Shown here: one piece after another, positions 11,478 through 56,699 of the stretch
Layout: every line of letters begins with the position of its first letter
Position numbering within the stretch: position 1 is the first letter of the stretch
Source of the DNA: a virus
Virus record (IMG/VR): IMGVR_UViG_3300046000_011464
Span: 1 to 56,699 of that record
DNA: 56,699 bases
Reading direction: 5' to 3' (one strand)
The notes under the pieces: model-generated
The model's input: only the letters and a program-made list of their open reading frames with translations
Databases searched by the model: none
Told to the model about the DNA's origin: nothing
Made by a program: the position numbers and the translations under genes

Positions 11478-11486
11478 TATAAATAT
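11478..11486 (-). promoter_or_regulatory. Late-type promoter motif before HNH gene
   Basis: ATATTTATA on the minus strand, 21 nt upstream of the ATG at 11456 and between the FAD enzyme stop and the HNH start. Confidence 0.5.
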
Positions 11487-17931: not shown

Positions 17932-17947
17932 GGGTGTTAGTTTTTGA

Positions 17948-17956
17948 TATAAATAT
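17948..17956 (-). promoter_or_regulatory. Late-type promoter motif
   Basis: ATATTTATA on the minus strand, 16 nt before the ATG at 17931, directly after the stop of the next gene upstream. Confidence 0.5.
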
Positions 17957-21126: not shown

Positions 21127-21135
21127 TATAAATAT
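21127..21135 (-). promoter_or_regulatory. Late-type promoter motif before kinase gene
   Basis: ATATTTATA on the minus strand, 14 nt before the ATG at 21112. It likely starts the kinase, fusion and HAD gene operon. Confidence 0.5.
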
Positions 21136-28734: not shown

Positions 28735-28743
28735 TATAAATAT
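28735..28743 (-). promoter_or_regulatory. Late-type promoter motif
   Basis: ATATTTATA on the minus strand, 22 nt before the ATG at 28712, in the gap after the giant tail gene. It probably drives the tail-fibre genes to its left. Confidence 0.5.
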
Positions 28744-35822: not shown

Positions 35823-35831
35823 TATAAATAT
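35823..35831 (-). promoter_or_regulatory. Late-type promoter motif
   Basis: ATATTTATA on the minus strand, 15 nt upstream of the ATG at 35807. It lies between the small membrane-protein frame and the DNRLRE-like gene. Confidence 0.5.
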
Positions 35832-42430: not shown

Positions 42431-42439
42431 TATAAATAT
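42431..42439 (-). promoter_or_regulatory. Late-type promoter motif before baseplate operon
   Basis: ATATTTATA on the minus strand, 13 nt upstream of the ATG at 42417, directly after the sigma factor gene. Confidence 0.5.
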
Positions 42440-42457: not shown

Positions 42458-43258
42458 TTAATAATTTAAACTAACAAAACCATAATCTAAATATTGGTTA
42501 TGTAACCGTCTATATACTTTTTCTAACTTTTTCATCACCTTAGTTATTTGAGGAGTATCTTGATCGGTTTGTTCTCTAATATAAATGTAAATTCCTTTTT
42601 TATTAAAAATATCTAAGTTTTCTCTATGCTTAAATAGCTGCATAACTGCATCAGCAGTTTTAGCATCTTCATGTTCAGGAAAAACTTTAAATAAAAATAA
42701 ATCCATATAATGAATAAATTTATCCATAAAATAATTTTCACCCATTAATGGATCATCTAAACTTTCAGAGCTATTTACTATATTTAAAACAATGGTTTTA
42801 TCTTCATCTATAGCTTCTACTTCGGCTTTACCCTTCAATTTTTCATAATTTTTATTATTATAAAGAATTAAATAACGTTTAGCAATCGTGCCAAAATACG
42901 AGAAAGCTTTACCTTTTGATTGGTTGTATAAATGTAGTTTTTCTAGCAAGAAAGCCGTTACTTCATGTTGAAGTTCGGCTATTGTCTCTACCTCGGTATA
43001 ATAAAATTTAAACGTATGAATAATATTTTCTGTTAATTTATGAAAACCATAATCTATACGTTCATTATATATTCTATTTCGCTTGTGAGGATCAGTTTCA
43101 GCTAGATATTCAATAATAGCATCTTCTGTATCTTGAGTGAAATACATTTTTTTGGTTTTAGGTTTTCTTTTACGAACCGTTCCCTTTTTTGTATACTGTA
43201 CTTCTGTTTCTTCTTGGGGTACATGAAGAATTTTAATTTCGGAATTTAATACCTCCAT
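42458..43258 (-). CDS. 55: Late-transcription sigma factor, gp55-like
   Basis: 266 residues (T4 gp55 is 185, so extended). The region-2 core (AFSYFGTIAKRYLILYNNKN, about 117-136) is the hallmark of phage gp55-type factors that bind core RNA polymerase and recognise the simple late promoter. A basic N-terminal patch (KKGTVRKRKPKTKK) may contact DNA or the polymerase. The factor probably reads the ATATTTATA motifs to its left. No own promoter motif is obvious; it follows the 43260 gene with a 1-nt gap. Confidence 0.9.
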   Translation of the reverse strand: MEVLNSEIKILHVPQEETEVQYTKKGTVRKRKPKTKKMYFTQDTEDAIIEYLAETDPHKRNRIYNERIDYGFHKLTENIIHTFKFYYTEVETIAELQHEVTAFLLEKLHLYNQSKGKAFSYFGTIAKRYLILYNNKNYEKLKGKAEVEAIDEDKTIVLNIVNSSESLDDPLMGENYFMDKFIHYMDLFLFKVFPEHEDAKTADAVMQLFKHRENLDIFNKKGIYIYIREQTDQDTPQITKVMKKLEKVYRRLHNQYLDYGFVSLNY

Positions 43259-46675: not shown

Positions 46676-46708
46676 AATATACGAAAAAGGAATTGGAAAA
46701 CCAAATAA
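46676..46708 (-). promoter_or_regulatory. Early-type promoter, leftmost copy
   Basis: TTCGTATATT at 46676-46685, 21 nt before the ATG at 46654. No GGAAT box at the 18-nt position (the sequence there is TTATT); the spacer overlaps the 46693-46785 inverted-repeat structure. Confidence 0.4.
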
Positions 46709-46785
46709 TCCCTAACTAAAAGTTAAGGATTAACATCTTCAACTAATTTATTAGTTTAAGTAGGGATATACCAAAGGTTTTCCAA
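46693..46785 (-). repeat. Nested inverted repeats, possible structured RNA
   Basis: TTGGAAAACC (46693-46702) is the exact reverse complement of GGTTTTCCAA (46776-46785). Inside, ATCCCTA (46708-46714) pairs with TAGGGAT (46761-46767), and AACTAA (46741-46746) pairs with TTAGTT (46751-46756). An alternative inner hairpin is AATCC-TAACT with AGTTA-GGATT. Two nested stems plus a hairpin are unlikely by chance. No reading frame covers the segment. Confidence 0.55.
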
Positions 46786-46870
46786 AAAAATTTTTAAAAG
46801 AGGATTTTACAATTTCGTAAAGTGTGGGTGAAATGGTTATTTCGGAATTGCGATATATGAGTATATATGA

Positions 46871-47010
46871 GGGGGTGGGTGAAAGATCGTAGTCGATCTG
46901 AGAGTGGCACATTCCTTCCCCCACCCGCCACCGCCACGCGTATGGACAGCAACGCGGTGTGGGCGCACCCCTATAAGCCGCGCACGGTCGCTATCGTCCC
47001 GAGGTCAAAC
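46871..47010 (-). other. GC-rich, non-coding, hairpin-bearing island
   Basis: Together with the 46693-46785 structure this fills the 359-nt gap 46655-47013. In this stretch 89 of 140 bases are G or C in an otherwise strongly AT-rich genome. It contains a perfect AGATCG/CGATCT hairpin (46884-46889 with 46894-46899) inside a GGGTGGG/CCCACCC pair (46873-46879 with 46920-46926), a CGCGG/CCGCG pair (46943-46947 with 46978-46982) and, on the minus strand, a G-quadruplex-like run GGCGGTGGCGGGTGGGGG. No minus-strand frame is open through it. Candidate structured RNA or cis-element; the strand is a guess from neighbouring genes. Confidence 0.45.
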
Positions 47011-47013
47011 GAA

Positions 47014-47247
47014 TTAGTCCCACTCTTCAAATTCTTCTGCCTCGGGATCATCCTCATACATTCCTTCAGAAATATCATCACAGGCGATATCCAAGTGCGT
47101 AAGTGCGTTATCCAAGTGGATTTTTACGTTATTATCGATTTCGCTGTACAATTCATCATTATCGATATAATCCATCGTGCGTTCCAAATCCTCCAATAAT
47201 TCTTGCAGTTGGGCGCTTAATTTGGTAAGTTGTTTAAGTGTATTCAT
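47014..47247 (-). CDS. Small acidic helical protein
   Basis: 77 residues, strongly acidic C-terminus (YEDDPEAEEFEEWD) after two amphipathic helices (LTKLSAQLQELLEDLERT). Highly negative small proteins of early phage regions sometimes mimic DNA, but no family is recognised. Its stop directly borders the GC-rich island. Confidence 0.6.
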   Translation of the reverse strand: MNTLKQLTKLSAQLQELLEDLERTMDYIDNDELYSEIDNNVKIHLDNALTHLDIACDDISEGMYEDDPEAEEFEEWD

Positions 47248-47283
47248 AATGTATAGTATTTTTAACCATACATATATGGGGGA

Positions 47284-47562
47284 TTACTCCCCCACACTTG
47301 TTTCTGGGATGTATGGTACTAGATTATCAAATCTAACAGTTGTTACCACTTTTTTACCTAACACAAAGGTGAATCCGGTGAAACTTACTCTATTCATTTT
47401 AATTACATTACATTCGTAATCATTAAGTACTATCTTATCATCAATTGATGAACGGGATTGTCTTGAAATGTGACCACCATCAAAGTAATAAGTTGAATCA
47501 CCTAAGTATTTTTTACCTCCAATGTAGAATGGGGTACCGTCTAAAAATTGTTCTTTTGTCAT
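47284..47562 (-). CDS. Small hypothetical protein
   Basis: 92 residues (MTKEQFLDGTPFYIGGKKYL), strand-rich, likely a small beta fold. The start has the AAAGGTTATG context common to this region. Driven by the promoter copy at 47591. Confidence 0.6.
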   Translation of the reverse strand: MTKEQFLDGTPFYIGGKKYLGDSTYYFDGGHISRQSRSSIDDKIVLNDYECNVIKMNRVSFTGFTFVLGKKVVTTVRFDNLVPYIPETSVGE

Positions 47563-47590
47563 AACCTTTTATATTTTATTATTATACTTA

Positions 47591-47600
47591 AATATACGAA
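47591..47600 (-). promoter_or_regulatory. Early-type promoter
   Basis: TTCGTATATTTAAGTATAA, 28 nt before the ATG at 47562. No box at the 18-nt position; a GGATA occurs 12 nt upstream instead. Confidence 0.5.
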
Positions 47601-47622
47601 ATGATATCTGAGTATCCAAGTT

Positions 47623-47850
47623 TTACTGAGCGCTTCTTAAAGTGGATTGTATTACACGGTGTTCTGTGCCCCGAGCACTCCTAAGGATAGCCCACCCATC
47701 ATTGTATGATAGTAGTAAACCAACCACCATATTGGCATTACCAGTGTCTCCCCAGTATACGACTCCTATTTGAAGGGTAGGCGTTGTGGGTTGAGTGGTA
47801 ACTATGGTATTGAGCCATTTGGTATAACGTTTACTGTACACCATTTTCAA
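47623..47850 (-). CDS. Small hypothetical protein
   Basis: 75 residues (MKMVYSKRYTKWLNTIVTTQ), with a beta-like core GVVYWGDTGNANMVVGLLLS that resembles SH3-type small barrels. It overlaps the end of the upstream signal-peptide gene by 20 nt. Confidence 0.5.
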   Translation of the reverse strand: MKMVYSKRYTKWLNTIVTTQPTTPTLQIGVVYWGDTGNANMVVGLLLSYNDGWAILRSARGTEHRVIQSTLRSAQ

Positions 47851-48019
47851 ACATAATTATCTGGTTATTAACAATGGCAAACTGTTTATGCTGTACCATC
47901 TTATCATAGTATTTTTGGGTTTTACTCTGAGATAATTTACGTTGGGATCCACATGATTGACATGATAGCCAAACAAAAAATAGGGCAATTGCGATTGCGT
48001 AGGGTCTAAATGCTTTCAT
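47831..48019 (-). CDS. Small exported protein, possible lipoprotein
   Basis: 62 residues. A signal sequence MKAFRPYAIAIALFFVWLSC has a basic start, a hydrophobic core and Cys at 20 and 23 (CQSCGS), a near-lipobox. The mature part is a short Lys/Gln-rich helix. Exported small proteins of early regions often block superinfection at the envelope; that role is inference. A hairpin (48049-48067) precedes the gene. Confidence 0.55.
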   Translation of the reverse strand: MKAFRPYAIAIALFFVWLSCQSCGSQRKLSQSKTQKYYDKMVQHKQFAIVNNQIIMFENGVQ

Positions 48020-48048
48020 AACTTGTTGTTTTAAATGGGATTTGAGTG

Positions 48049-48067
48049 GGGTATTTTTGGTACCCCG
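48049..48067 (-). promoter_or_regulatory. Leader hairpin before exported-protein gene
   Basis: GGGGTA (48049-48054) pairs with TACCCC (48062-48067), loop 7 nt, located between promoter 48111 and the ATG at 48019. No T run follows, so a translational or RNA-stability element is more likely than a terminator. Confidence 0.4.
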
Positions 48068-48110
48068 TGGCTATTAACCTACCTTTACTCTATCACCTTA
48101 TTACATGTTA

Positions 48111-48120
48111 AATATACGAA
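48111..48120 (-). promoter_or_regulatory. Early-type promoter
   Basis: TTCGTATATTTAACATGTAATAAGG on this strand (motif core at 48111-48120), about 90 nt before the ATG at 48019. GGATCC lies 12-17 nt upstream; no GGAAT at 18 nt. Confidence 0.5.
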
Positions 48121-48127
48121 ATTGATC

Positions 48128-48604
48128 TTATGGATCCAATCGCTGTTTAAGGAGTTGTTTAAGTTCTTTAATTTGAGATTTCATTTTAACTATATGGGCC
48201 TCTTTCTGTCTCATTCTTGCAATCCACTTCCAAGCATCCTCCATCTCTAATATATCATTAAGGGTTTTATGCAATTGAGCATTTTTAGTATGTAATGCTT
48301 GATTTTCGAAAATTAATTCATAATTGGATCTATTATGTATGGAGTTAGTAAGATAAGGGGATTTATATTGACCAATCCAATATTTTTCTCTGTCATTAAT
48401 ACTGGATTTATCACATTGTTCTAATATACAGAATTCAAATTTTTTGTTATGTTTTATTAAATGCTCCTTTAAATTAACAAGTGTTGGATTTATAGGTTTA
48501 TTCCAGTGGGCATCCCATCGTTGGTTTAAATTCTTAGATTGCCCCACATATACAACTTCATTATACATGGGGTTTATTATCCCATAAACATAATACATTT
48601 TCAT
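48128..48604 (-). CDS. GIY-YIG endonuclease
   Basis: 158 residues. GIY and YIG strands are YYVYGI (4-9) and VVYVGQS (17-23), with catalytic Arg29 in LNQRWDAHW and Glu72 in INDREKYWIGQY. A C-terminal ~60-residue coiled coil (MRQKEAHIVKMKSQIKELKQ) replaces the usual DNA-binding tail. Probably a homing enzyme. It has no early-type promoter of its own, unlike its neighbours, consistent with insertion. Confidence 0.85.
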   Translation of the reverse strand: MKMYYVYGIINPMYNEVVYVGQSKNLNQRWDAHWNKPINPTLVNLKEHLIKHNKKFEFCILEQCDKSSINDREKYWIGQYKSPYLTNSIHNRSNYELIFENQALHTKNAQLHKTLNDILEMEDAWKWIARMRQKEAHIVKMKSQIKELKQLLKQRLDP

Positions 48605-48746
48605 AATTTATATTAATATTAACAGATGCTCAACATTTTGGTAAGATTATTGAATATTATTCATGTCTCCTTTCTCTTTCACATGTAACGTAGAGCATTC
48701 TTCACCATAATGGGCGCCTTATATTGAATATCCTCCATTCGCCTAT

Positions 48747-48788
48747 AAAAAATATAGTGGGCCTGTGAGAGCAGGCCCGAAACTATAT
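48747..48788 (-). terminator. Strong Rho-independent terminator
   Basis: GGGCCTG (48759-48765) pairs with CAGGCCC (48772-48778), extended by ATATAGT (48752-48758) with ACTATAT (48782-48788) across a 3-nt bulge, then TTTTTT on the minus strand. It ends the AT-hook-like gene. The rest of the gap 48605-48746 holds no convincing gene. Confidence 0.88.
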
Positions 48789-48798
48789 TGGGGGAAAA

Positions 48799-49164
48799 TT
48801 ATTCCGCTTTGGCGGGACGACCTAACTTAATGGTTCCGTTTAAACGTTTCGCTTCCAATTCCATTTTACGTTTGTAGGAAGCACTTTCCGGGTTTGGTTT
48901 ACGTCCCAATTTAACTAATCCTTTAACTGATAGTCTCATTTGGCGTTTTGAACCCTCTACTACGGGACGACCTTTTTTAAGTTCACCTGCCGCACGTTTA
49001 GCTTCTAATTCCGCCTTACGAGTGGCATGTTTGCTTTCAAAATTCACGGGTCTTCCACGTTTAATTTCGCCTGCCTCACGTTTGGCAGCCAACTCGGCCA
49101 ATCTGATTTGTCTTACTGAATTTGTGTTAACTGGTCTACCTAATGTTTTTACTGTGTTTGTCAT
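48799..49164 (-). CDS. AT-hook-like tandem-repeat DNA-binding protein
   Basis: 121 residues made of about four repeats of roughly 28 residues, each opening with an AT-hook-like (K)(R/K/L)GRP: TLGRPVN, KRGRPVN, KKGRPVV, LGRKPN and a final KLGRPAK. Between hooks lie basic helices such as KAELEAKRAAGELKK. AT-hooks bind the minor groove of AT-rich DNA. In an AT-rich phage this could be a nucleoid-like organiser, a silencer antagonist or a regulator of the AT-rich promoters. The third repeat is shorter (22). Followed by a strong terminator. Confidence 0.75.
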   Translation of the reverse strand: MTNTVKTLGRPVNTNSVRQIRLAELAAKREAGEIKRGRPVNFESKHATRKAELEAKRAAGELKKGRPVVEGSKRQMRLSVKGLVKLGRKPNPESASYKRKMELEAKRLNGTIKLGRPAKAE

Positions 49165-49205
49165 AACCTTTATTTTTTTATTAATTAATTTCTTATTACA
49201 TGTTA

Positions 49206-49215
49206 AATATACGAA
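49206..49215 (-). promoter_or_regulatory. Early-type promoter before AT-hook-like gene
   Basis: TTCGTATATTTAACATGTAATAAG, 41 nt before the ATG at 49164. The -33 region is AAGTTTGG, closer to the Bacteroidota TTTG box than to GGAAT. Confidence 0.5.
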
Positions 49216-49222
49216 TCCTATT

Positions 49223-49405
49223 TTACGAAACCAAACTTACTTTGATATAATTTCGATCTAATATTCTTTTACATTCAGAATAATCTGATGGATTAACTAG
49301 GAAAGTATTTCCTGTATTGTAAAATACATTGGAAAGCTTGTTTGAATTGATTAACAATTGGTTCGCTTTTTTTCTTAGACCTAATTCTACTGTAAATTTT
49401 TTCAT
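49223..49405 (-). CDS. Small basic hypothetical protein
   Basis: 60 residues (MKKFTVELGLRKKANQLLIN), mixed helix and strand. No family recognised. Preceded by the promoter copy at 49443. Confidence 0.5.
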   Translation of the reverse strand: MKKFTVELGLRKKANQLLINSNKLSNVFYNTGNTFLVNPSDYSECKRILDRNYIKVSLVS

Positions 49406-49442
49406 ATTTTTTCTTTTTAATTATTAACTTTCTTACATGTTA

Positions 49443-49452
49443 AATATACGAA
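49443..49452 (-). promoter_or_regulatory. Early-type promoter
   Basis: TTCGTATATTTAACATGTAAG, 37 nt before the ATG at 49405. No GGAAT at the 18-nt position. Confidence 0.5.
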
Positions 49453-49722
49453 ATTAACTTTAAAAATCCAAATCTATTTTATAGAGCGTTAGTAATTAAC
49501 GTTTTAAAAGTATATACCTTTTTTTAAAGGAGGAAGTGGAGGGGCGGGGGAAGAAGGGTACCGTATTATGCCCCTAACTCAACACATTCCACCTATACTC
49601 GTTTCCACATACCATCCTAAGCCCTCGCCACTCTAGGAATATCTTTCCTAAATGCGTTCCCTCATAGGAAATTGTTTCCACATTATAACATTAGGTAGGA
49701 ACCACGTTCCCTTACCAATTTT
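49453..49722 (-). other. Gene-free stretch with G-rich tract and three hairpins
   Basis: Part of the 581-nt gap 49406-49986. At 49527-49558 the plus strand is a purine run (AAAGGAGGAAGTGGAGGGGC then GGGGGAAGAAGGG), G-quadruplex-like; the minus strand there reads CTTCCTCCTTTA, close to the 3' end of 16S rRNA. Further right lie hairpins AGGAA/TTCCT, GGAAA/TTTCC and GGTA-GGAAC with GTTCC-TTACC (49694-49716). No coding frame is convincing. Processed RNA or transcript-end structures are possible. Confidence 0.35.
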
Positions 49723-49782
49723 GCGGAGTGAGAGGAGTCGAACCTCTTGCGCAGACAGTCTTGCTTTAAACCAACCACTCCA
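49723..49782 (-). tRNA. tRNA-like element, short or incomplete
   Basis: A clear T-arm (AGAGG-TTCGACT-CCTCT) is followed by CACTCCG, which pairs with TGGAGTG at the 5' end (49776-49782). Only 60 nt separate the ends, about 13 too few for a cloverleaf with both D and anticodon arms. Upstream, AGGAT-CTGCAG-GTCCT and AGGAT-TGCAATG-GTCCT form two near-identical anticodon-like hairpins. A degenerate tRNA or tRNA-like RNA seems likely; isotype not assigned. Confidence 0.4.
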
Positions 49783-49861
49783 GGACCTGCAGATCCTATT
49801 ATAAAAATTAAGCTAGGACCATTGCAATCCTAGGGTTTAACCTGCCCTTGCTTATTTTTTG

Positions 49862-49980
49862 ATGTTGTGACAGGATTCGAACCTGCATCTTTTTAATTCT
49901 TCTCACAGGATACCGAATATCTATCTCAATCTTGAGGCCTTCTTGTAGGAAGGTGCTTATACCTATTACGCCACACAACA
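49862..49980 (-). tRNA. Unusually long tRNA-like gene
   Basis: The 7-bp acceptor TGTTGTG (49974-49980) pairs with CACAACA (49863-49869). T8-G9, a Leu-like D-arm (GCGTAATAGGTATAAGC) and a good T-arm (GCAGG-TTCGAAT-CCTGT) are present. The ends are 118 nt apart, roughly 30 more than a long-variable-arm tRNA. The anticodon-like hairpin CCTTC-CTACAA-GAAGG has a 6-nt loop, and CTCAAGA further on would suit a Leu(CAA) loop but lacks a matching stem. Either an insertion in a Leu-type tRNA or a tRNA-like RNA. Confidence 0.55.
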
Positions 49981-49986
49981 AACTTA

Positions 49987-50244
49987 TTATGATTTAATAA
50001 TCTCCACTATATCATGATCTTCTTCAGGTATTCTAAAATTTTTGAATACAAACCCATCATGTGTTCTTGTACCATAGTTATTGTTACTATTACCAAAAGA
50101 ATTACCATCTTTATCTTTAACATATCTCACCACATGGTCTAGGTAAGTATAATTATTCCAAGGTGTAGGTGCAATATATTCTAACACTGCTCCTTGTGAG
50201 GATATCAATTTATCCCCCGGTTTACAATCTCTCAAATCTACCAT
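49987..50244 (-). CDS. Small hypothetical protein
   Basis: 85 residues (MVDLRDCKPGDKLISSQGAV), a short beta-type fold with an Asn-rich loop (GNSFGNSNNNYGTRTHDG). No family recognised. It lies right after the tRNA-like genes, driven by promoter 50277. Confidence 0.6.
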   Translation of the reverse strand: MVDLRDCKPGDKLISSQGAVLEYIAPTPWNNYTYLDHVVRYVKDKDGNSFGNSNNNYGTRTHDGFVFKNFRIPEEDHDIVEIIKS

Positions 50245-50276
50245 TTCATTTCTTTTTTTATCATTATTACTCCATT

Positions 50277-50309
50277 AATATACGAAGTCTGATTTGCATA
50301 TGTTATTCC
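50277..50309 (-). promoter_or_regulatory. Early-type promoter with GGAAT box
   Basis: TTCGTATATTAATGG with GGAAT (50305-50309) exactly 18 nt upstream; drives 49987-50244. Confidence 0.6.
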
Positions 50310-50525
50310 TTATTTGTTAAATTTTTCGTTGTAGTATTGCTCTGATAGTTTATCTCTAAAAATAGCAGTTGAACCATAACCTTTTTTGCAAGCATCTATT
50401 ATCTGTTGCTTTTCCATTTCTTTGGCTTGTTCTATTAATTCAGAATTTATAACTCCGTTAAAAATAAAATCACCTTTGCCATCATCTCCTCTTAATTCTT
50501 GTATTAACCATTGTACTGCTGTCAT
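50310..50525 (-). CDS. Small phage protein (MTAVQWL type)
   Basis: 71 residues from the ATG at 50525 (MTAVQWLIQELRGDDGKG). The frame is open to 50564 but that start would overlap its neighbour. SELIEQAKEMEKQQIIDA then YNEKFNK is a pattern I know from many small Bacteroidota phage proteins of unknown function. Confidence 0.65.
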   Translation of the reverse strand: MTAVQWLIQELRGDDGKGDFIFNGVINSELIEQAKEMEKQQIIDACKKGYGSTAIFRDKLSEQYYNEKFNK

Positions 50526-50536
50526 CTTATTTCTTT

Positions 50537-50746
50537 TTAAATTCTTTTTCTGTAATCTGAACAAGCTTTAACCCAACCTCTATCCCAAGCATCATCTGCT
50601 CCTGGGCATTGGTTAAATAATACCGTAGGGTCTTTACCTTTTTTTATTTCATTTTCCGCTTCAGTATAACCTTCTTCAAACATTCCTTTACCATTGTAGT
50701 TAGTTTCTTTAAAAATTTTACCCCAATGTTCTAAAAATTGTATCAT
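50537..50746 (-). CDS. Small phage protein
   Basis: 69 residues. The second half, CPGADDAWDRGWVKACSDYR, has an AWxxGW pattern vaguely like ribosome-modulation-factor proteins; I would not assign it on that basis. Tight spacing with both neighbours suggests one operon with 50310 and 50749. Confidence 0.55.
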   Translation of the reverse strand: MIQFLEHWGKIFKETNYNGKGMFEEGYTEAENEIKKGKDPTVLFNQCPGADDAWDRGWVKACSDYRKRI

Positions 50747-50748
50747 AA

Positions 50749-51735
50749 TTATTTCTTTTTAAATTGTTCAAACCAGATTTTGTTTTCTTCCATATCATTT
50801 TTATCAATATATTGATATATGAAAGTTTCTAAATATTTAGTATGGTGCTCTAATATTTCTAACACATCTTCCTCATTATACATTTTTTCAGCTTGCCATT
50901 TAGCACCATACACACAACCTTTTTTAAAAATAATTCTTTCATCTTGATTGAGATATTCTTTTGAATATAAAGAATTATCAGCAACTTCTTCAAGTGTTTC
51001 TTGTTTAGGATGTTTTAAACCCAATAATTCCGTGTATTTAGAATTGTGCCATCTTAAATGTGATGGTACCCCCAATTCTTGTTCCATCTCATATATTTCC
51101 CTTTGTATTTTATTCATTTTAGGTTCTTCTTTTGGAATGTAATCTTTTCCTAACCAAACTGTAACTTTTTTACCATCAATAAAATCTTCGTGAAAATACT
51201 CTTGGTGTTCTTCGTGAAACATTACTTCTTGATTGTTTGGATTTACAAGGTTTGGAATGATGATTTTGTAACCTACATCGCATAAATCTTGTTTATCATA
51301 AGCACCTTGACTTGGACAATTATCTCCATGTTTACAAAATGATTCAACTTCAACCTCTTCACAACTTGGATTCTTAACAAACCATTCTAAAAATGTATCA
51401 TCAATAGCTTGAACACCATCATTTTCAGCGGTAAATTTGATTAAATCTTTGTCTGTTGTTAGGATGATTTTTCTACAATATGATTTTTGAAATTGTAAAA
51501 CACCACTCTCATAGTGATTAGACAAAGTTCTTTCACATTTAAAAACTCTATTATCTCTAATATCAATACCATATTCTCCTTCTTTAATTTCTTCTGAATT
51601 AGTGATGTAGATATTTTGACAAATTACATTATCAATCTTTGGCATAGGACTGTTAAACAAATCCCAACTATTATTCTTTAAATAATGTATTAACCTACTT
51701 GGTTTATCTGTTGGGATTATAAATATATTTTTCAT
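50749..51735 (-). CDS. Conserved phage protein of unknown function (328 aa)
   Basis: 328 residues, the largest product of the early region. It begins MKNIFIIPTDKPSRLIHYLK, continues ICQNIYITNSEEIKEGEYG and has IDDTFLEWFVKNPSCEEVEV, a combination seen, as far as I recall, in many flavobacterial phages. A Cys/His cluster (ESFCKHGDNCPS ... DLCDVGYK) may bind zinc. The C-terminus (GCVYGAKWQAEKMYNEEDVL) is a helical motif seen in the same type of proteins. Its biochemical role is unknown. Probably transcribed with 51739-51840 from promoter 51872. Confidence 0.7.
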   Translation of the reverse strand: MKNIFIIPTDKPSRLIHYLKNNSWDLFNSPMPKIDNVICQNIYITNSEEIKEGEYGIDIRDNRVFKCERTLSNHYESGVLQFQKSYCRKIILTTDKDLIKFTAENDGVQAIDDTFLEWFVKNPSCEEVEVESFCKHGDNCPSQGAYDKQDLCDVGYKIIIPNLVNPNNQEVMFHEEHQEYFHEDFIDGKKVTVWLGKDYIPKEEPKMNKIQREIYEMEQELGVPSHLRWHNSKYTELLGLKHPKQETLEEVADNSLYSKEYLNQDERIIFKKGCVYGAKWQAEKMYNEEDVLEILEHHTKYLETFIYQYIDKNDMEENKIWFEQFKKK

Positions 51736-51738
51736 AAG

Positions 51739-51840
51739 TTATATAGAATTTGAAATTAAACAATACATGAAGATTCCCCACACGATAATTAACCCTACCT
51801 TTGCAACGTTTGCTGCTCGTTGAACTGATTTTTCTGACAT
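51739..51840 (-). CDS. Small single-pass membrane protein
   Basis: 33 residues, MSEKSVQRAANVAKVGLIIV followed by WGIFMYCLISNSI: a basic N-terminus and one hydrophobic helix. The AAGGTTATG start context and promoter 51872 directly upstream support it. The stop lies 3 nt before the next start. Confidence 0.55.
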   Translation of the reverse strand: MSEKSVQRAANVAKVGLIIVWGIFMYCLISNSI

Positions 51841-51871
51841 AACCTTCTATTTTTTATCTTATTACATTCGA

Positions 51872-51904
51872 AATATACGAAAGCAGCTTAAATTAGCTGC
51901 TTCC
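51872..51904 (-). promoter_or_regulatory. Early-type promoter with hairpin in spacer
   Basis: TTCGTATATTTCGAATG with GGAAG (51900-51904) 18 nt upstream. The spacer is a perfect 8-bp inverted repeat, AAGCAGCT/AGCTGCTT (51881-51888 with 51895-51902). Confidence 0.6.
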
Positions 51905-51916
51905 CTAGTATTGTTT

Positions 51917-52114
51917 TTATTTAATTTTTATCCAAATACCTCTTTTAAAGTAATCAACTACTTGTTCATCTCTGTAAACTGTAGTGAAAGATGAGTGTGA
52001 TTTGTTTTTCCAATGAATATCACATATACCATCAACACTTTTACCTACTACGTAAATTGGAAACTCCTCACTACAGTGAGTAAATTCCTTACCTCTTAAA
52101 TCATCTATTTTCAT
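51917..52114 (-). CDS. Small hypothetical protein
   Basis: 65 residues (MKIDDLRGKEFTHCSEEFPI), strand-rich with IHWKNKSHSSFTTVYRDEQV, possibly a small SH3-like or DUF fold. Its upstream region has only a degenerate promoter (TATCTTTAAGTATTAA around 52139-52151). Confidence 0.55.
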   Translation of the reverse strand: MKIDDLRGKEFTHCSEEFPIYVVGKSVDGICDIHWKNKSHSSFTTVYRDEQVVDYFKRGIWIKIK

Positions 52115-52166
52115 AACTGTTTGTTGTTTTAATTATTAATACTTAAAGATAGTGATTAAACTAATA

Positions 52167-52349
52167 CTAGGCAACTTTTTCTTTAACTTTTTTCACAATA
52201 TATGCCATTCCATAATAACTCTTTTCTCCTGGAGATAGGAAAGATCTTCTTAGCTTAGCATACGCTTTGGCCTCTTCATGGTCTTCAAATTCCTTAACAA
52301 CTTTAATTTTCGACCCTATAGGTCCACCTATTCGAATAACTTGTGTCAT
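52167..52349 (-). CDS. Small basic hypothetical protein
   Basis: 60 residues (MTQVIRIGGPIGSKIKVVKE), short alpha/beta with LRRSFLSPGEKSYYGMAYIV. Function unknown. Driven by promoter 52386. Confidence 0.55.
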   Translation of the reverse strand: MTQVIRIGGPIGSKIKVVKEFEDHEEAKAYAKLRRSFLSPGEKSYYGMAYIVKKVKEKVA

Positions 52350-52385
52350 ATTACCTCTTTTTAATTATTATTTCTTGAACGTTTA

Positions 52386-52418
52386 AATATACGAAATCTA
52401 ATTTAATTATTTAGTTCC
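52386..52418 (-). promoter_or_regulatory. Early-type promoter with GGAAC box
   Basis: TTCGTATATTTAAACG with GGAAC (52414-52418) at the 18-nt spacing; drives 52167-52349. Confidence 0.6.
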
Positions 52419-52426
52419 TTAGCCTA

Positions 52427-52534
52427 TTAATTATTTATAATTTTTTGATAAGCTTTACACATTTCCTCATTATCACCTAAATAAATGTTACCTAATTTTT
52501 TCATCCACTCGTAGAATTTTTCTGCTTCTTTCAT
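52427..52534 (-). CDS. Very small hypothetical protein
   Basis: 35 residues, MKEAEKFYEWMKKLGNIYLG then DNEEMCKAYQKIINN, amphipathic helical. The ATG at 52534 is 1 nt past the stop of the 52536 gene, which supports translational coupling. Confidence 0.5.
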   Translation of the reverse strand: MKEAEKFYEWMKKLGNIYLGDNEEMCKAYQKIINN

Positions 52535-52535
52535 A

Positions 52536-52817
52536 TTATTTACCTTTATTTAATTCATTTAAAACAGCAACCTCAATAGTACCAATTCCCTTAAATATAT
52601 TATTATTCAAGTAAATAGCATGGTGATATTCATCTACTAAATCATGTAATTTACTCATAAATTCCTGTAAATCTTTCTTTTGAATATTATTATATATTCT
52701 TTGTTTTAATTCACCTAATGCTTCACTTATGGTATCACCATCTTCGATAATCTCATTTTCAACTAATTGGTTTTCAATATTTCTAATTCCTTCTAACAAT
52801 AAATCTAAATTTTTCAT
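52536..52817 (-). CDS. Small helical hypothetical protein
   Basis: 93 residues, nearly all helix (LLLEGIRNIENQLVENEIIE ... LHDLVDEYHHAIYL). No family recognised. AAAGTTATG start context; driven by promoter 52859. Confidence 0.6.
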   Translation of the reverse strand: MKNLDLLLEGIRNIENQLVENEIIEDGDTISEALGELKQRIYNNIQKKDLQEFMSKLHDLVDEYHHAIYLNNNIFKGIGTIEVAVLNELNKGK

Positions 52818-52858
52818 AACTTTACGTTTTTATCTTATTACATCTTTTTAACATTCGA

Positions 52859-52891
52859 AATATACGAAATTTACTTATAATCTCAAATACC
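52859..52891 (-). promoter_or_regulatory. Early-type promoter with GGTAT box
   Basis: TTCGTATATTTCGAATG with GGTAT (52887-52891) at 18 nt. The box straddles the end of the 52892 gene. Confidence 0.55.
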
Positions 52892-53134
52892 CTATACGTA
52901 ATAATAGTAGTAATTTCTGTTATCACTTTTCTTCTTCCATAACAATCTTTTAACAAGACCCTTAGCAAGACCCCGTCGTAACATGTCAGCATATTTTTTA
53001 TTTGACTTAATAGTTTCATTTCTGTAATATCCAAAAACTTGTTCTTGAATTTGCCCTTCAGTTTTATAATTAGTAGTTTTTAAAAAATCTACAATTTCAT
53101 TTACTGAACGATAAGGTGCTGTTTGTGGCCACAT
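52892..53134 (-). CDS. Small basic protein, possible winged-helix type
   Basis: 80 residues (MWPQTAPYRSVNEIVDFLKT). YADMLRRGLAKGLVKRLLWK has a helix-wing-like arrangement with basic residues, and the tail is NYYYYYV. A winged-helix DNA-binding fold is possible. Driven by promoter 53173. Confidence 0.55.
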   Translation of the reverse strand: MWPQTAPYRSVNEIVDFLKTTNYKTEGQIQEQVFGYYRNETIKSNKKYADMLRRGLAKGLVKRLLWKKKSDNRNYYYYYV

Positions 53135-53172
53135 AATATTTTCTTTTTAATTATTAACTTTCTTACATGTTA

Positions 53173-53205
53173 AATATACGAAAAGAGGATATAAAATCCT
53201 CTTCC
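53173..53205 (-). promoter_or_regulatory. Early-type promoter with hairpin in spacer
   Basis: TTCGTATATTTAACATGTAAG with GGAAG (53201-53205) at 18 nt. The spacer is a perfect 8-bp inverted repeat, AAGAGGAT/ATCCTCTT (53183-53190 with 53196-53203). Confidence 0.6.
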
Positions 53206-53215
53206 ATTATTACTT

Positions 53216-53461
53216 TTAATAAAATAATCCGTTCCAAACCAACCAACTTGGTTTTTGGAAAATACCTAATTTAGGTTCGTTTTTTGAATACTCTCCAACA
53301 ACTTCCATAGTATAACAAATATTACCACATTCGCTTACATCAACTAATATGCTTCGATTGGTTGAACTATAATTATCACTGAATTCATTACCAATTTCTT
53401 CTTTTAGCATTTGAATTTTGTTGTGACCGTCAATTGAATCTTGAATACTTAAATTTACCAT
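53216..53461 (-). CDS. Small hypothetical protein
   Basis: 81 residues: helix IDGHNKIQMLKEEIGNEFSD then strands (CGNICYTMEVVGEYSKNEPK). Function unknown. AAAGTTATG start; promoter 53487. Confidence 0.55.
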   Translation of the reverse strand: MVNLSIQDSIDGHNKIQMLKEEIGNEFSDNYSSTNRSILVDVSECGNICYTMEVVGEYSKNEPKLGIFQKPSWLVWNGLFY

Positions 53462-53486
53462 AACTTTGATTTTTTAATTATACTTA

Positions 53487-53519
53487 AATATACGAATTAT
53501 AGCTTAAATATCTTATTCC
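53487..53519 (-). promoter_or_regulatory. Early-type promoter with GGAAT box
   Basis: TTCGTATATTTAAGTATAA with GGAAT (53515-53519) at 18 nt; drives 53216-53461. Confidence 0.65.
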
Positions 53520-53798
53520 TTAATTTAATAGTTTAAATCTCATTAAACGACCTTCTCCAACAGCAACACTATTCATGTTACCTATACTTTGCCAAACAAA
53601 TTTAATATTGAATGCTTGCATATGATCACCTAATTTAGTTCTCACTTGCTCATATATATCATTTGGGAAAATATGTTCAGATAAATCAAAACCATTTTCA
53701 GCATATGTAGCTATTTTATCTAATGCTTCAAGGTAGTATTTATTTACTTGCTGATTAATTCTTTGATCTCTTGCTTCTGTGTTTAATTTAATTTCCAT
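53520..53798 (-). CDS. Small hypothetical protein
   Basis: 92 residues (MEIKLNTEARDQRINQQVNK), helical first half and a strand-rich tail (AFNIKFVWQSIGNMNSVAVG). Function unknown. Promoter 53837. Confidence 0.6.
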   Translation of the reverse strand: MEIKLNTEARDQRINQQVNKYYLEALDKIATYAENGFDLSEHIFPNDIYEQVRTKLGDHMQAFNIKFVWQSIGNMNSVAVGEGRLMRFKLLN

Positions 53799-53836
53799 AA
53801 CTTTACATTTTTAATTATTAACTTTCTTACAGATTA

Positions 53837-53869
53837 AATATACGAAATATGTTTTATTAATCATATTCC
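53837..53869 (-). promoter_or_regulatory. Early-type promoter with GGAAT inside coding sequence
   Basis: TTCGTATATTTAATCTG with GGAAT (53865-53869) at 18 nt. Here the box lies inside the last codons of the 53857 gene, so the fixed spacing holds even in coding DNA. Confidence 0.65.
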
Positions 53870-54129
53870 TTATCTAAACTCATTAAAATGTAATGAGATA
53901 CACTTGTATAATCACGTAATATATCTGTTCTCCAGGAACCAACTTCATAAACCAAGTCCTCTAATGTTGTACACTCGTTTAATGCTAGAATATATTCATT
54001 ATCCATAACATTTCGATCAATTTCACTTTGAATAAACTTTTCTATAATACTAATACATGAAGGAAAGGTATTTTGTCTTTCTTCCTCTAAATCACGTGCA
54101 TTTTTTCTAAAATCTTCATTATATGACAT
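53857..54129 (-). CDS. Small acidic hypothetical protein
   Basis: 90 residues (MSYNEDFRKNARDLEEERQN), helical; ends LMSLDKEYD. The last codons carry the GGAAT box of the next promoter. Function unknown. Promoter 54156. Confidence 0.6.
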   Translation of the reverse strand: MSYNEDFRKNARDLEEERQNTFPSCISIIEKFIQSEIDRNVMDNEYILALNECTTLEDLVYEVGSWRTDILRDYTSVSHYILMSLDKEYD

Positions 54130-54155
54130 AATATTTGTTTTAATTATTATACTTA

Positions 54156-54188
54156 AATATACGAACTTTATTTTAAAAAATCTCTTCC
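54156..54188 (-). promoter_or_regulatory. Early-type promoter with GGAAG box
   Basis: TTCGTATATTTAAGTATAAT with GGAAG (54184-54188) at 18 nt; the box overlaps the final codons of 54173-54469. Confidence 0.65.
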
Positions 54189-54469
54189 TTTATACTAACA
54201 ATTGCTATTTCATTTGCAATAAATTCATCCAATTCCTGCTCTAATTGTTGAGCTTCATTGTATAATTTTTCACCTCTAAATTTCCAAATCAAAATAGAAA
54301 AATCATTTCTACTCATATCAAATCTAAATTCATTACCTTCACTTTCAATAGAAAAAGAAAAATAACCACGACCTTCTTCATCATTGAAATCTTCAATTAC
54401 ATTAAAATTCTTTTGTACAGCATCAATTACATGTTTTGTAATAATGTTTTTTTGTTCTTTCTTTGTCAT
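54173..54469 (-). CDS. Small acidic alpha/beta hypothetical protein
   Basis: 98 residues. GRGYFSFSIESEGNEFRFDM is a beta pair, and a helical tail follows (QLEQELDEFIANEIAIV). No family recognised. AAAGTTATG start; promoter 54496. Confidence 0.6.
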   Translation of the reverse strand: MTKKEQKNIITKHVIDAVQKNFNVIEDFNDEEGRGYFSFSIESEGNEFRFDMSRNDFSILIWKFRGEKLYNEAQQLEQELDEFIANEIAIVSIKEEIF

Positions 54470-54495
54470 AACTTTTATCTTTTTTCTTATACTTA

Positions 54496-54528
54496 AATAT
54501 ACGAAATTAATCTTAATCTTCTAATTCC
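54496..54528 (-). promoter_or_regulatory. Early-type promoter with GGAAT inside coding sequence
   Basis: TTCGTATATTTAAGTATAAG with GGAAT (54524-54528) at 18 nt, within the EEL codons at the end of the 54513 gene. Confidence 0.65.
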
Positions 54529-54725
54529 TCTATATAATTAAATTTTAATATACCTTCTTCAACTCTACCAATTCCTCTTTTTACTATTTCACTAATATAA
54601 TACTCTATACCAGTTGAAGGAACACAGTGCATTGTATTTTGTAATGCTAATTTATTACCATTTTTATGATAAATTTCTGCTAATCGTAATTCAAGATTTA
54701 CTCTATTCAATGTTCTTTCTTTCAT
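54513..54725 (-). CDS. Small hypothetical protein
   Basis: 70 residues (MKERTLNRVNLELRLAEIYH), helix then short strands. Function unknown. Promoter 54750. Confidence 0.55.
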   Translation of the reverse strand: MKERTLNRVNLELRLAEIYHKNGNKLALQNTMHCVPSTGIEYYISEIVKRGIGRVEEGILKFNYIEELED

Positions 54726-54749
54726 AATATATCTTTTTAATTATACTTA

Positions 54750-54782
54750 AATATACGAACTTTATTTTACTTATCCATTTCC
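54750..54782 (-). promoter_or_regulatory. Early-type promoter with GGAAA box
   Basis: TTCGTATATTTAAGTATAA with GGAAA (54778-54782) at 18 nt; drives 54513-54725. It lies just past the terminator of the tRNA unit. Confidence 0.6.
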
Positions 54783-54790
54783 TTAGTCAC

Positions 54791-54814
54791 AAAAAGCCCC
54801 TTAAAAAGGAGCTT
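54791..54814 (-). terminator. Terminator after tRNA
   Basis: AAGCTCCTT and AAGGGGCTT pair on the minus strand with a short T loop and one mismatch, followed by TTTTTG. It lies 53 nt downstream of the 54867-54939 tRNA. Confidence 0.7.
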
Positions 54815-54866
54815 AATGTTTCGTAATAATTAAAAAAGAATAAGGGGTTATGAAGCACTTATTTTG

Positions 54867-54939
54867 TAGTCAGGGAGGACTCGAACCTTAAAGCAACCAT
54901 ATAGGACTCGGCAACCACGCCTCATTACGCCACCTGACT
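54867..54939 (-). tRNA. tRNA gene, isotype uncertain
   Basis: 73 nt. Acceptor AGTCAGG (54933-54939) pairs with CCTGACT (54868-54874), with A73. T8, A14 and a GG in the D-loop are present (D-arm GCGTAATGAGGCGT) and the T-loop is TTCGAGT. The T-stem pairs only about three positions well, and the anticodon arm is unclear: loop GTCCTAT would give CCT (Arg) but has a mismatched closing pair. Real tRNA by length and acceptor; function possibly impaired. Confidence 0.7.
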
Positions 54940-54947
54940 GATTTATT

Positions 54948-55319
54948 TTATAATTCGTTATTAGCAATTGCCTTAATTACTTCTTTATTTTCTTCATCTT
55001 GTTCCTCATCAGTTTCTCCTAAATCCATAAAATTGTTTTCCAATGCCTCTCTTAAATTATCTACATTAATAGGAGCTCCTACTACTTCAATTCTATTATC
55101 ATAGTTTAATTCAAACTCAACTGAATCTAAATCAACCAAATCTCTTTCATTATTCTCTGCCCATTCAATAACATTATCAATTGCTCTTCCAATATCAAAA
55201 GTAGTAATAACTCTACCTTTATTTTCTTCAATACTATTAATTAAATTAATAACATCTTCTTTTGAGAAAATTGAACTTACTGAACTTTGAACTGACTGTA
55301 ATACTAAATCTTTTTTCAT
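54948..55319 (-). CDS. Acidic hypothetical protein
   Basis: 123 residues, acidic. The N-terminal half is helical (SIFSKEDVINLINSIEENKG), then DSVEFELNYDNRIEVVGA strands and a very acidic tail (LGETDEEQDEENKE). The tRNA lies 8 nt downstream of its stop, so both may share a transcript. Promoter 55359. Confidence 0.6.
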   Translation of the reverse strand: MKKDLVLQSVQSSVSSIFSKEDVINLINSIEENKGRVITTFDIGRAIDNVIEWAENNERDLVDLDSVEFELNYDNRIEVVGAPINVDNLREALENNFMDLGETDEEQDEENKEVIKAIANNEL

Positions 55320-55358
55320 AACCTTTTATTTTTAAATTATTAATTTTTCTTATACTTA

Positions 55359-55391
55359 AATATACGAACTTTATTTTAAATCTCTTATTCC
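55359..55391 (-). promoter_or_regulatory. Early-type promoter with GGAAT box
   Basis: TTCGTATATTTAAGTATAAG with GGAAT (55387-55391) at 18 nt; drives 54948-55319 and probably the tRNA. Confidence 0.65.
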
Positions 55392-55395
55392 TTTT

Positions 55396-55620
55396 TTAAA
55401 TTTTTTCTTCAATTATTAACTGAGTACTAACTTCACATTGCATTTCTCTAAATAGTTCAGGTCCCTTTTTAGAACCTAATGTTAAATAAAATACAGCATC
55501 TACATCTTCAGCATTAACAAATTCTAATTCCTTGTAGAGAAAATCAAAATTCTCAGCTAATTTAATTTCGTTTTTAGTGTTTAACCAGTTAACGATTGAT
55601 TTTTTATTCATTGTTTTCAT
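55396..55620 (-). CDS. Small hypothetical protein
   Basis: 74 residues (MKTMNKKSIVNWLNTKNEIK), mixed helix and strand. M4 could also be the start. Spaced 5 nt from the 55626 gene. Function unknown. Confidence 0.55.
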   Translation of the reverse strand: MKTMNKKSIVNWLNTKNEIKLAENFDFLYKELEFVNAEDVDAVFYLTLGSKKGPELFREMQCEVSTQLIIEEKI

Positions 55621-55625
55621 AACCT

Positions 55626-55760
55626 TTATTTTTTTAAGTTTTTAGCTAATGCTGATTTGAAATTCATTTCATGATTAAGTTTATCTTGAGCTAATATTTT
55701 CTCTTGATTTGCTTCCCACCATAATTGATATTCTTTTGAAGCAATACTTTTACCTTCCAT
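55626..55760 (-). CDS. Very small helical protein
   Basis: 44 residues, MEGKSIASKEYQLWWEANQE then a Lys-rich helical tail. AAAGTTATG start context and promoter 55786 directly upstream support it. Confidence 0.55.
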   Translation of the reverse strand: MEGKSIASKEYQLWWEANQEKILAQDKLNHEMNFKSALAKNLKK

Positions 55761-55785
55761 AACTTTATCTTTTTAATTATACTTA

Positions 55786-55818
55786 AATATACGAACTTTA
55801 TTTTAAATAAACTATTCC
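55786..55818 (-). promoter_or_regulatory. Early-type promoter with GGAAT box
   Basis: TTCGTATATTTAAGTATAA with GGAAT (55814-55818) at 18 nt; drives 55626-55760 and 55396-55620. Confidence 0.65.
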
Positions 55819-55823
55819 TTTAA

Positions 55824-56129
55824 TTAAAATAAATCATTTAAGTGTTTTTGAACTTCCATTCTAGCAACATTTGAAATACTTTTAGAAAACGACCCTATAT
55901 GCCATTCTATTACTTCAATATCACTAATTTTTCTATATTCCTTCCAATCATAGATTGTGAATACGTCACCTTCTTCAGTTTCCATGTCCCAAACAAAATT
56001 TACTTTGTCTTCACCCGTATTATTATTATCAGGTTCACCTAATGCTCTAGTTAAATCTTGAACACTTGCTTTAATTGTTACACCTTGAAATGAAGTTCCA
56101 TCTACATTTTTGTACGTTTTTTTAGCCAT
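55824..56129 (-). CDS. Small hypothetical protein
   Basis: 101 residues (MAKKTYKNVDGTSFQGVTIK). VQDLTRALGEPDNNNTGEDK then NFVWDMETEEGDVFTIYDWK and IEVIEWHIGS resemble a small beta-lactamase-inhibitor/DUF-type alpha-beta fold found in many phages. Function unknown. Promoter 56170. Confidence 0.65.
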   Translation of the reverse strand: MAKKTYKNVDGTSFQGVTIKASVQDLTRALGEPDNNNTGEDKVNFVWDMETEEGDVFTIYDWKEYRKISDIEVIEWHIGSFSKSISNVARMEVQKHLNDLF

Positions 56130-56169
56130 AACCTTTATTTCTTTAAATTATTAATTTTTCTTATACTTA

Positions 56170-56202
56170 AATATACGAAATTAAATTTAATTATCTAATT
56201 CC
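56170..56202 (-). promoter_or_regulatory. Early-type promoter with GGAAT box
   Basis: TTCGTATATTTAAGTATAAG with GGAAT (56198-56202) at 18 nt; the box overlaps the end of the 56195 gene. Confidence 0.65.
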
Positions 56203-56647
56203 CTTGTAAATCTTCTATATCACCTTCATATTCAAATTCCTCTTCATACTCTTCTCTTTCTTCAATCATATATCTTACCTCTTCAATTGGCTGAGACATT
56301 ATTAATTGTTTTAACATTTGATCTTCCATACCTACTTCTTTAAGTATGTATTGCATTGTTTCTCCATCAACACAATCTCCTTTTAATGTTAGAGATCTTA
56401 AGTTATTAATGATCTGTTCAATTCTATTTCGAACAAACTCTCCTTCACTCATTTGAGCTGTCTCGTAGATCACTTTGTATGACTTGTAGTAATTATCTTC
56501 CCAAGTAATAACTACAGTTCTACCACACTCGGTAGTAAGTTCTGTTGAATTCGTATCAAAGACATTAATAACATCTGCCCAATCTAATTCAAATTCCTTT
56601 TGTGTTGAATTTTCAGCTTGATCTAAAAAATAATTTACATCCATCAT
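56195..56647 (-). CDS. Acidic helical hypothetical protein
   Basis: 150 residues: a helix-rich core (RNRIEQIINNLRSLTLKGD) and a strongly acidic C-terminus (REEYEEEFEYEGDIEDLQG). No family recognised. AAAGTTATG start; driven by the last promoter copy. Confidence 0.6.
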   Translation of the reverse strand: MMDVNYFLDQAENSTQKEFELDWADVINVFDTNSTELTTECGRTVVITWEDNYYKSYKVIYETAQMSEGEFVRNRIEQIINNLRSLTLKGDCVDGETMQYILKEVGMEDQMLKQLIMSQPIEEVRYMIEEREEYEEEFEYEGDIEDLQGN

Positions 56648-56685
56648 AACTTTTTCCTTTTTAATTAATATCTCTTGAACACTTA

Positions 56686-56695
56686 AATATACGAA
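56686..56695 (-). promoter_or_regulatory. Early-type promoter, rightmost copy
   Basis: TTCGTATATTTAAGTG; its upstream box would lie beyond the window edge. Drives 56195-56647. Confidence 0.55.
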
Positions 56696-56699
56696 ATTC

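Follow-up and report, generated by a model that had tools for sequence, protein, structure and literature searches.

Two putative classes of prereplicative promoter, one marked by a rigidly placed GGAA box, in T4-like phages related to Flavobacterium phage immuto

The virus record IMGVR_UViG_3300046000_011464 of IMG/VR is a 56,699-base stretch of DNA, referred to here in its entirety as the window, with a G+C content of 29.6% and long open reading frames (ORFs) that lie nearly all on the minus strand. Near one end, a ten-base core, TTCGTATATT, recurs before small genes, and it is accompanied by one of two upstream elements, each held at its own fixed distance: a TTG in what are termed class A copies, and a GGAA box in class B copies. 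Considered together with the relatives of this phage, the copies represent a real, clade-wide and rigid two-class promoter-like system. On balance, the two classes are best interpreted as prereplicative promoters of the sigma-A type, one host-like and the other with a box read by a phage-supplied factor, in a logic resembling that of the middle promoters of phage T4. Its predicted genes identify the window as one fragment of a T4-like phage, kin to Flavobacterium phage immuto. It has matches to T4-type terminase (phrog_2), portal (phrog_213) and baseplate wedge (phrog_219) families, and the annotations of immuto include gp20/gp23.

All 19 exact copies of TTCGTATATT in the window are on the minus strand between positions 46676 and 56695, i.e., within 10 kb, as the first-pass annotation of this DNA had stated. 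The number expected in a shuffled window is 0.28, and the largest seen in 100 shuffles was 3. Full upstream sequence is available for 18 copies, and 13 of these possess GG(A/T)A at a single offset, exactly 18 nt upstream of the core. These 13 comprise every complete copy from 50277 to 56179, twelve with GGAA and one (copy 52859) with GGTA. No offset was shared by more than four of the 18 copies in 2000 dinucleotide shuffles, and the fixed spacing claimed earlier was borne out on recounting. The 19th copy (56686) lost its upstream part to the contig end. For this copy, a sibling locus (L167, record G001) has GGAAT at the box place, and the 25 nt downstream of the core agree between the two. When ORFs of at least 50 amino acids (aa) are considered, the box lies within the final part of the preceding ORF in four of 13 cases and outside it in the other nine, in keeping with the original description.

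Such an ORF begins 21–41 nt from the core in 16 of the 19 copies, while copies 55786 and 51872 precede shorter ORFs whose ATG is 25–31 nt away. The earlier statement that each copy stands upstream of a gene is thus accurate in the stricter sense for 16 copies; at 48111, the next listed ORF is 91 nt away. The five copies left of 50 kb lack the box, as previously noted in proposing two classes, but they are not merely box-less. TTGG is present in all five, with the TTG exactly 16 nt before the core, a register that at most three of five copies shared in shuffles and that many only once in 2000. In most copies the core reads TATATTTA, which matches the TA..TTT of the Bacteroidota -7 element TAnnTTTG and has A as its last base. 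The proposal that the copies are promoters is supported by this Bacteroidota-type -7 core, by the rigid upstream element, by the similar spacing of an A-rich leader and a start codon, and by an orientation that is nearly always that of the genes.

In the numbering of F. johnsoniae promoters (PMC6847099), the T of TATATTTA is at -12. The box then occupies -39 to -35, reaching -32 if its degenerate tail is counted; the TTG occupies -35 to -33, so that the two overlap by one base. An initial suggestion that GGAAT replaces TTTG at -33 is not exact, since the box lies directly 5′ of that register; box promoters have lost the TTG and carry the box beside its place.

The same two classes are found beyond the window. 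A sample of 13 records (the window, 11 relatives and immuto; that is, 12 box-bearing contigs plus immuto) contains 345 cores on the coding strand and six on the other. Upstream of the 345 are GGAA in 159, TTG in 72, both in 5 and neither in 109, and most of the last group have GGAC, GGAT, GGTA or another GG box at the box place. For the 344 cores with enough upstream sequence, the corresponding figures are 237 with GG and no TTG, 7 with both, 70 with TTG, 12 with TAGG at the -33 place, and 18 others. The register is strict: of the GGAA occurrences within 40 nt in the 12 box-bearing records, 164 keep the exact offset, a single one is shifted closer by one base and another single one away by one base, and all remaining offsets together account for 15. 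The TTG occurs 16 nt before the core (20 nt to its TA) in 77 of the 345. Only five of the 164 GGAA cores also carry TTG, and the -33 register of box promoters is mostly TAGN or TAAN. Cores relaxed by one base showed the same two offsets for most changes.

Base frequencies were compiled from 164 promoters selected for GGAA and 70 selected for TTG. The consensus is A-GGAA-T-A-(G/A)-G for the box and T-TTG-G for the TTG class, and the classes differ mainly at positions -29 to -16 relative to the core. An A-tract ~8 nt upstream of the core and the A-rich leader are the same in both. This agreement in core, A-tract and leader makes it probable that a single form of polymerase serves both classes. 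Box variants differ by lineage, the second-commonest form being GGAC in G005, G007, G009, G012 and G014, GGAT in G011, GGTA/GGCA in the window's lineage, and GGTC in G010.

In IMG/VR at large, GGAA-N19-core is present in at least 120 stretches. Twenty-five loci with at least four cores, each chosen for at least one GGAA at the exact offset, have GGAA there in 100 of 198 cores, one base nearer in one and one base further in none. A stricter pattern, GGAAT-N18-core, gave 68 hits in 41 stretches, representing 56 distinct flank clusters. The twelve other spacings from N19 to N30 together gave 71 stretches; for N19, there were 39 hits in only five clusters, and most of the 12 shown were one repeated sequence. 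At any offset other than N18, the fetched loci held at most six distinct clusters (spacings under N18 were scanned in the fetched loci only, and N18–N30 in the collection). Seventeen whole records have 4–25 box-plus-core copies each, always on one strand, and a reversed control pattern gave none.

The trait follows a clade. All 59 loci with at least two boxes share clade proteins, as do 68 of 97 single-box loci. The reference proteins were taken from 13 records, and some of these records were also a source of loci. In a separate scan for TTG-class loci, clade proteins were present in 115 of the 120 loci listed and a box in six, one box each. One locus on a 412-kb contig (L482) has eight TTG promoters and no clade protein.

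The terminase of Flavobacterium phage immuto_2-6A, which measures 160 kb and infects Flavobacterium sp. LMO8, is 59.7% identical to that of the window. The small genes without known function at 46.7–56.7 kb of the window have a counterpart block at ~67–76 kb in immuto, a T5orf172 gene adjoins the block in both phages, and core and leader are the same. In contrast to the window, immuto has promoters of the TTG(C) class only, and a pattern search of its 160 kb yielded no GGAA box. Some orthologous genes have the box upstream in the window's lineage and TTG upstream in immuto, which argues that class belongs more to the phage lineage than to the gene. On a terminase tree built by a quick method, the box trait needs only about three changes, and it is kept in several terminase lineages.

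Both classes share a sigma-A-type core, TTCG-TATATTTAA, together with the upstream A-tract, the A-rich leader and a start codon usually 20–40 nt downstream. Class A has a host-type TTG(G) at -35 to -33. In class B, the TTG is gone and in its stead there is a box, A-GGAA-TA-(G/A)-G, that begins at -39 and keeps one invariant register with the core. In the mechanism regarded as most likely, a phage-made or phage-carried factor would bind GGAA beside, or instead of, sigma region 4 on host RNA polymerase. The box could thereby stand in for the -33 contact, allowing a block of small prereplicative genes to be switched on separately from TTG promoters.

Box plus core was found in only four stretches of an 84,980-species genome collection. 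In F. jejuense, TTCGTATATTTAA showed no enrichment (one occurrence, versus three in the reversed control), nor was GG followed by A/T enriched at the box distance upstream of TAnnTTTG in 400 kb. On these grounds, a host origin of the box was judged unlikely. Upstream of 181 F. jejuense genes, offsets near TAnnTTTG were too few to be of use, with a slight excess of TTG at N20 (8) that vanished over the full 400 kb; the host-likeness of class A therefore rests on the published consensus rather than on these counts. The four genome-collection stretches, the absence of enrichment in F. jejuense, the clade restriction and the lineage-specific box variants together point to a reader that is phage-made or phage-carried.

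Several candidate readers were considered. Pfam models for MotCF (MotA) and AsiA each matched none of 14 records at E ≤ 1, and homologues of these proteins were set aside on that basis, although divergent analogues are possible and the MotA activation-domain model was not searched. Sigma region 4 (Sigma70_r4_2) exceeded its Pfam cut-off in three of 19 records, the window fragment not being among them, too few for a phage sigma to be the general reader. The best co-occurring gene encodes an AT-hook-like repeat protein, which is a weak candidate for a trans-acting reader, or a lead at most. Its repeat family is present in all 12 box-bearing records, and profile matches occur in 17 of 18 box-bearing records versus one of 25 others. 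Among 276 loci, with a box counted as GGA then A, C or T, matches were found in 20 of 67 with at least two boxes versus none of 47 with at least two TTG promoters and no box; the other 162 loci were of neither type, and five of them had a match. Searches of Pfam and PHROGs with the window's protein found nothing. Of 63 families present in at least eight of nine long box-bearing contigs, eight have no match in immuto, and these include the AT-hook repeat, a GIY-YIG-like and a clamp-loader-like family (the latter two names inferred from sequences). The association is not independent, since the trait changed only about three times, many of the box-less rows are fragments, and replication genes also differ from those of immuto.

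The more specific version of the proposal is a sigma appropriation of these phages' own: a phage protein, perhaps aided by the protein with AT-hook repeats, would read GGAATAGG from -39 and replace the -33 contact of the unusual Bacteroidota sigma-A. This is offered tentatively, as a possibility with somewhat more to be said against it than for it.

A number of observations weigh against a phage-supplied reader. The promoters are predicted from sequence, and no known reader turned up among the 14 records. AT-hook motifs bind AT-rich DNA, not GGAA. The offset test covers one Flavobacterium genome, which may not be that of the host of the window phage. Patterns counted over 41 complete genomes from the genus to which G018 belongs (GGAA 328 versus 242, and TTTG 783 versus 584, in reversed controls) give the same ratio and do not discriminate. 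Finally, class B marks a dense block of tiny genes expected to act first, before new phage protein is available, and in that event only a reader that is injected or made by the host would serve.

According to the strongest rival, ordinary early promoters include the box as an upstream element, which the unmodified holoenzyme of the specific host of these phages uses as a variant -35, an alpha-CTD site or a host-activator site. It is a serious contender, albeit an unlikely one. The apparently immediate-early character of the class B block agrees with it, as does the presence of TTG promoters in immuto, both on the corresponding block and before some of the shared orthologues. Less easily accommodated are the rarity of box plus core in the genome collection, the lack of offset enrichment in F. 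jejuense, the near-absence of spacing tolerance, the differences in box variants between phage lineages, and the use of TTG promoters by the very same phages.

Alternatively, the box could be the -35 element of an alternative sigma, phage-encoded or of the host extracytoplasmic function (ECF) type. The -35 elements of ECF sigmas are GGAAC-like, which the box resembles, and in three box-bearing records (G004, G011 and G015) the product of an ECF-like sigma gene exceeds the Pfam cut-off. Sixteen of 19 records, including the long box-bearing G005–G008, have no region-4 match over the cut-off, however, and most box-bearing records have no ECF gene, although a host ECF sigma is possible. Moreover, the -10 part is identical in the sigma-A-like TTG promoters, and the distance from GGAAT to CGTA, at 20 nt, is longer than ECF spacings. 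This explanation is improbable.

Far less probable still is that the box forms the foot of the preceding gene's terminator hairpin, with the TTTC of the core as its 3′ side. A stem of at least 5 bp is present in 35 of the 159 spacers of box promoters, versus 2.7% after shuffling of these spacers, and in some stem-bearing spacers the box can, by inspection, pair with the T tract. Yet of 302 cores that lack such a hairpin, 205 retain GG in the box position, which led to rejection of this idea; none of 70 TTG-class spacers holds a stem by the same measure, and 106 of 237 boxes lie inside the upstream ORF. Stems of this length occur in three of 78 variant-box spacers. In many cases the space between box and core probably contains the terminator of the gene before. 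As a source of the conservation, recent duplication of units of promoter and gene, instead of box function, has least to commend it: some copies do have spacer stretches in common (TTTAAAATAAAG), but flanks and spacers are otherwise diverse, as seen in the 56 clusters, and the box persists in several terminase lineages.

With a phage-supplied reader retained as the favored explanation, the closest parallel is phage T4. At T4 middle promoters (PMC2988021), a MotA box, TGCTTtA, has its centre at -30 and a spacing of 12 bp ± 1 to the -10; together with AsiA it takes over the -35 contact, while the -10 contact of sigma is kept. Here too the phage is T4-like and, going by sequence, a phage-specific box may stand in for the -35 contact while the -10 is kept. 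As in T4 (PMC2988021), the box class is found alongside host-like promoters and a distinct, likely late class. Unlike the T4 element (PMC2988021), the box is GGAATAGG, starts at -39 and shows almost no tolerance in position. Also unlike T4, the MotCF and AsiA models are empty, and class B marks a block of tiny genes. Judged by box sequence, position or known proteins, it is not a member of the T4 middle family, and would instead be a variant of phage takeover of the -35 contact, for which T4 middle promoters are the best-known case.

Bacteroidota sigma-A promoters (TTTG / TAnnTTTG) have a -33 TTTG ~20 nt before the -7 element and a start site 4–5 nt after it. Class A shares the TTG at -35 to -33, TATATTTA at -12 to -5 and the TTG-N20-TA arrangement, an arrangement not found in class B, which has no TTG. 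The core of both classes differs in having TTTA for TTTG and an extended TTCG upstream.

With respect to timing, no copy of TTCGTATATT occurs in the structural genes of the window. This absence and the nature of the gene block point to prereplicative expression, and classes A and B are most likely prereplicative. For the box class, T4-style middle expression fits as well as early expression. The structural genes of the window have a different motif, ATATTTATA. The form ATATTTAT occurs 17 times on the window's coding strand, 12 of them 5–33 nt before an ORF, and across eight records it precedes 85 of 396 ORFs versus 7 in a reverse-complement control. Sites of ATATTTATA have no conserved -33 element and are likely late promoters; their core is the reverse complement of the T4 late motif TATAAATA. 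A probable late sigma is encoded in the window as well, which we take to be of the gp55 kind, and its gene sits at the border. Coordinates of these features are given in the table.

Table. Putative promoters and associated genes, in window coordinates unless another record is named.
Feature	Position	Strand	Basis or remark
Core TTCGTATATT, upstream cut	56686..56699; core 56686-56695	-	Sequence; sibling L167 (G001) has GGAAT box
Box class (putative)	56170..56202; core 56170-56179, GGAAT 56198-56202	-	Box inside end of ORF 56195-56647
Box class (putative)	55786..55818; core 55786-55795, GGAAT 55814-55818	-	Sequence
Box class (putative)	55359..55391; core 55359-55368, GGAAT 55387-55391	-	Sequence
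Box class (putative)	54750..54782; core 54750-54759, GGAAA 54778-54782	-	Sequence
Box class (putative)	54496..54528; core 54496-54505, GGAAT 54524-54528	-	Box inside end of ORF 54513-54725
Box class (putative)	54156..54188; core 54156-54165, GGAAG 54184-54188	-	Box inside end of ORF 54173-54469
Box class (putative)	53837..53869; core 53837-53846, GGAAT 53865-53869	-	Box inside end of ORF 53857-54129
Box class (putative)	53487..53519; core 53487-53496, GGAAT 53515-53519	-	Sequence
Box class (putative)	53173..53205; core 53173-53182, GGAAG 53201-53205	-	Spacer hairpin-like (GAGGATTTTATATCCTC)
Box class (putative)	52859..52891; core 52859-52868, variant box GGTAT 52887-52891	-	Sequence
Box class (putative)	52386..52418; core 52386-52395, GGAAC 52414-52418	-	Sequence
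Box class (putative)	51872..51904; core 51872-51881, GGAAG 51900-51904	-	Spacer hairpin-like (AGCAGCT...AGCTGCT)
Box class (putative)	50277..50309; core 50277-50286, GGAAT 50305-50309	-	Sequence
TTG class (putative)	49443..49471; core 49443-49452, TTG of TTTGG 49469-49471 (-33 element)	-	Sequence
TTG class (putative)	49206..49234; core 49206-49215, TTG 49232-49234	-	Upstream of AT-hook repeat gene
TTG class (putative)	48111..48139; core 48111-48120, TTG 48137-48139	-	Sequence
TTG class (putative)	47591..47619; core 47591-47600, TTG 47617-47619	-	Sequence
TTG class (putative)	46676..46704; core 46676-46685, TTG 46702-46704	-	Sequence
AT-hook-like protein, 121 aa, repeated GRP motifs	48799..49164	-	Co-occurs with box
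Probable late sigma, 266 aa	42458..43258	-	47% identical to a relative's protein with weak Sigma70_r2 match below cut-off
ATATTTATA examples	42432-42439, 35824-35831, 28736-28743, 21128-21135	-	Structural region
ATATTTATA examples	11479-11486, 8692-8699, 7061-7068, 5104-5111	-	Structural region
Full ECF-like sigma gene	G011 (oriented) 42484-43077		Pfam, also PHROGs
Full ECF-like sigma gene	G004 17512-17976		Pfam
Full ECF-like sigma gene	G015 11142-11624		Pfam

Other features of the window and its relatives were observed as well. A short G+C-rich stretch, seen by eye at 46890–47010 in a window of ~30% G+C, lies between the promoter block and the T5orf172 side. Rfam identified a tRNA at 49862–49980 (minus strand, 34.1 bits) that has a long variable-region insertion and was missed by ARAGORN, and tRNA-like sequence was seen by eye near 49725–49790 and 54867–54940. 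Homologues of the immuto 7-deazaguanine genes (QueC/D/E, FolE) are found in G005, G006, G007 and G008, and partly in G002 and G003, and four of the relatives carrying such genes have a distant DpdA. Guanine in the DNA of these relatives, including that of the GG box, may be modified. For the clamp-like and clamp-loader-like genes of box-bearing phages (identities partly inferred), no counterpart was found in immuto, whose annotation lists family A polymerases; the replisome appears to differ between members of a single clade.

To our knowledge, experiments have hardly touched on how Bacteroidota phages other than the crAss-like group control transcription, and a literature search returned no description of this promoter class among the matches listed. 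The class is legible from sequence with little noise, in hundreds of copies and many genomes, beside a sister lineage (immuto, cultured on Flavobacterium sp. LMO8) without the box. This opens phage capture of a divergent Bacteroidota sigma factor to a direct test. The class also provides a rule for annotating early gene blocks and possibly a source of strong or inducible promoters for Bacteroidota genetics. If the proposed appropriation is correct, it would constitute a second, MotA/AsiA-independent early or middle switch, one absent from the immuto lineage.

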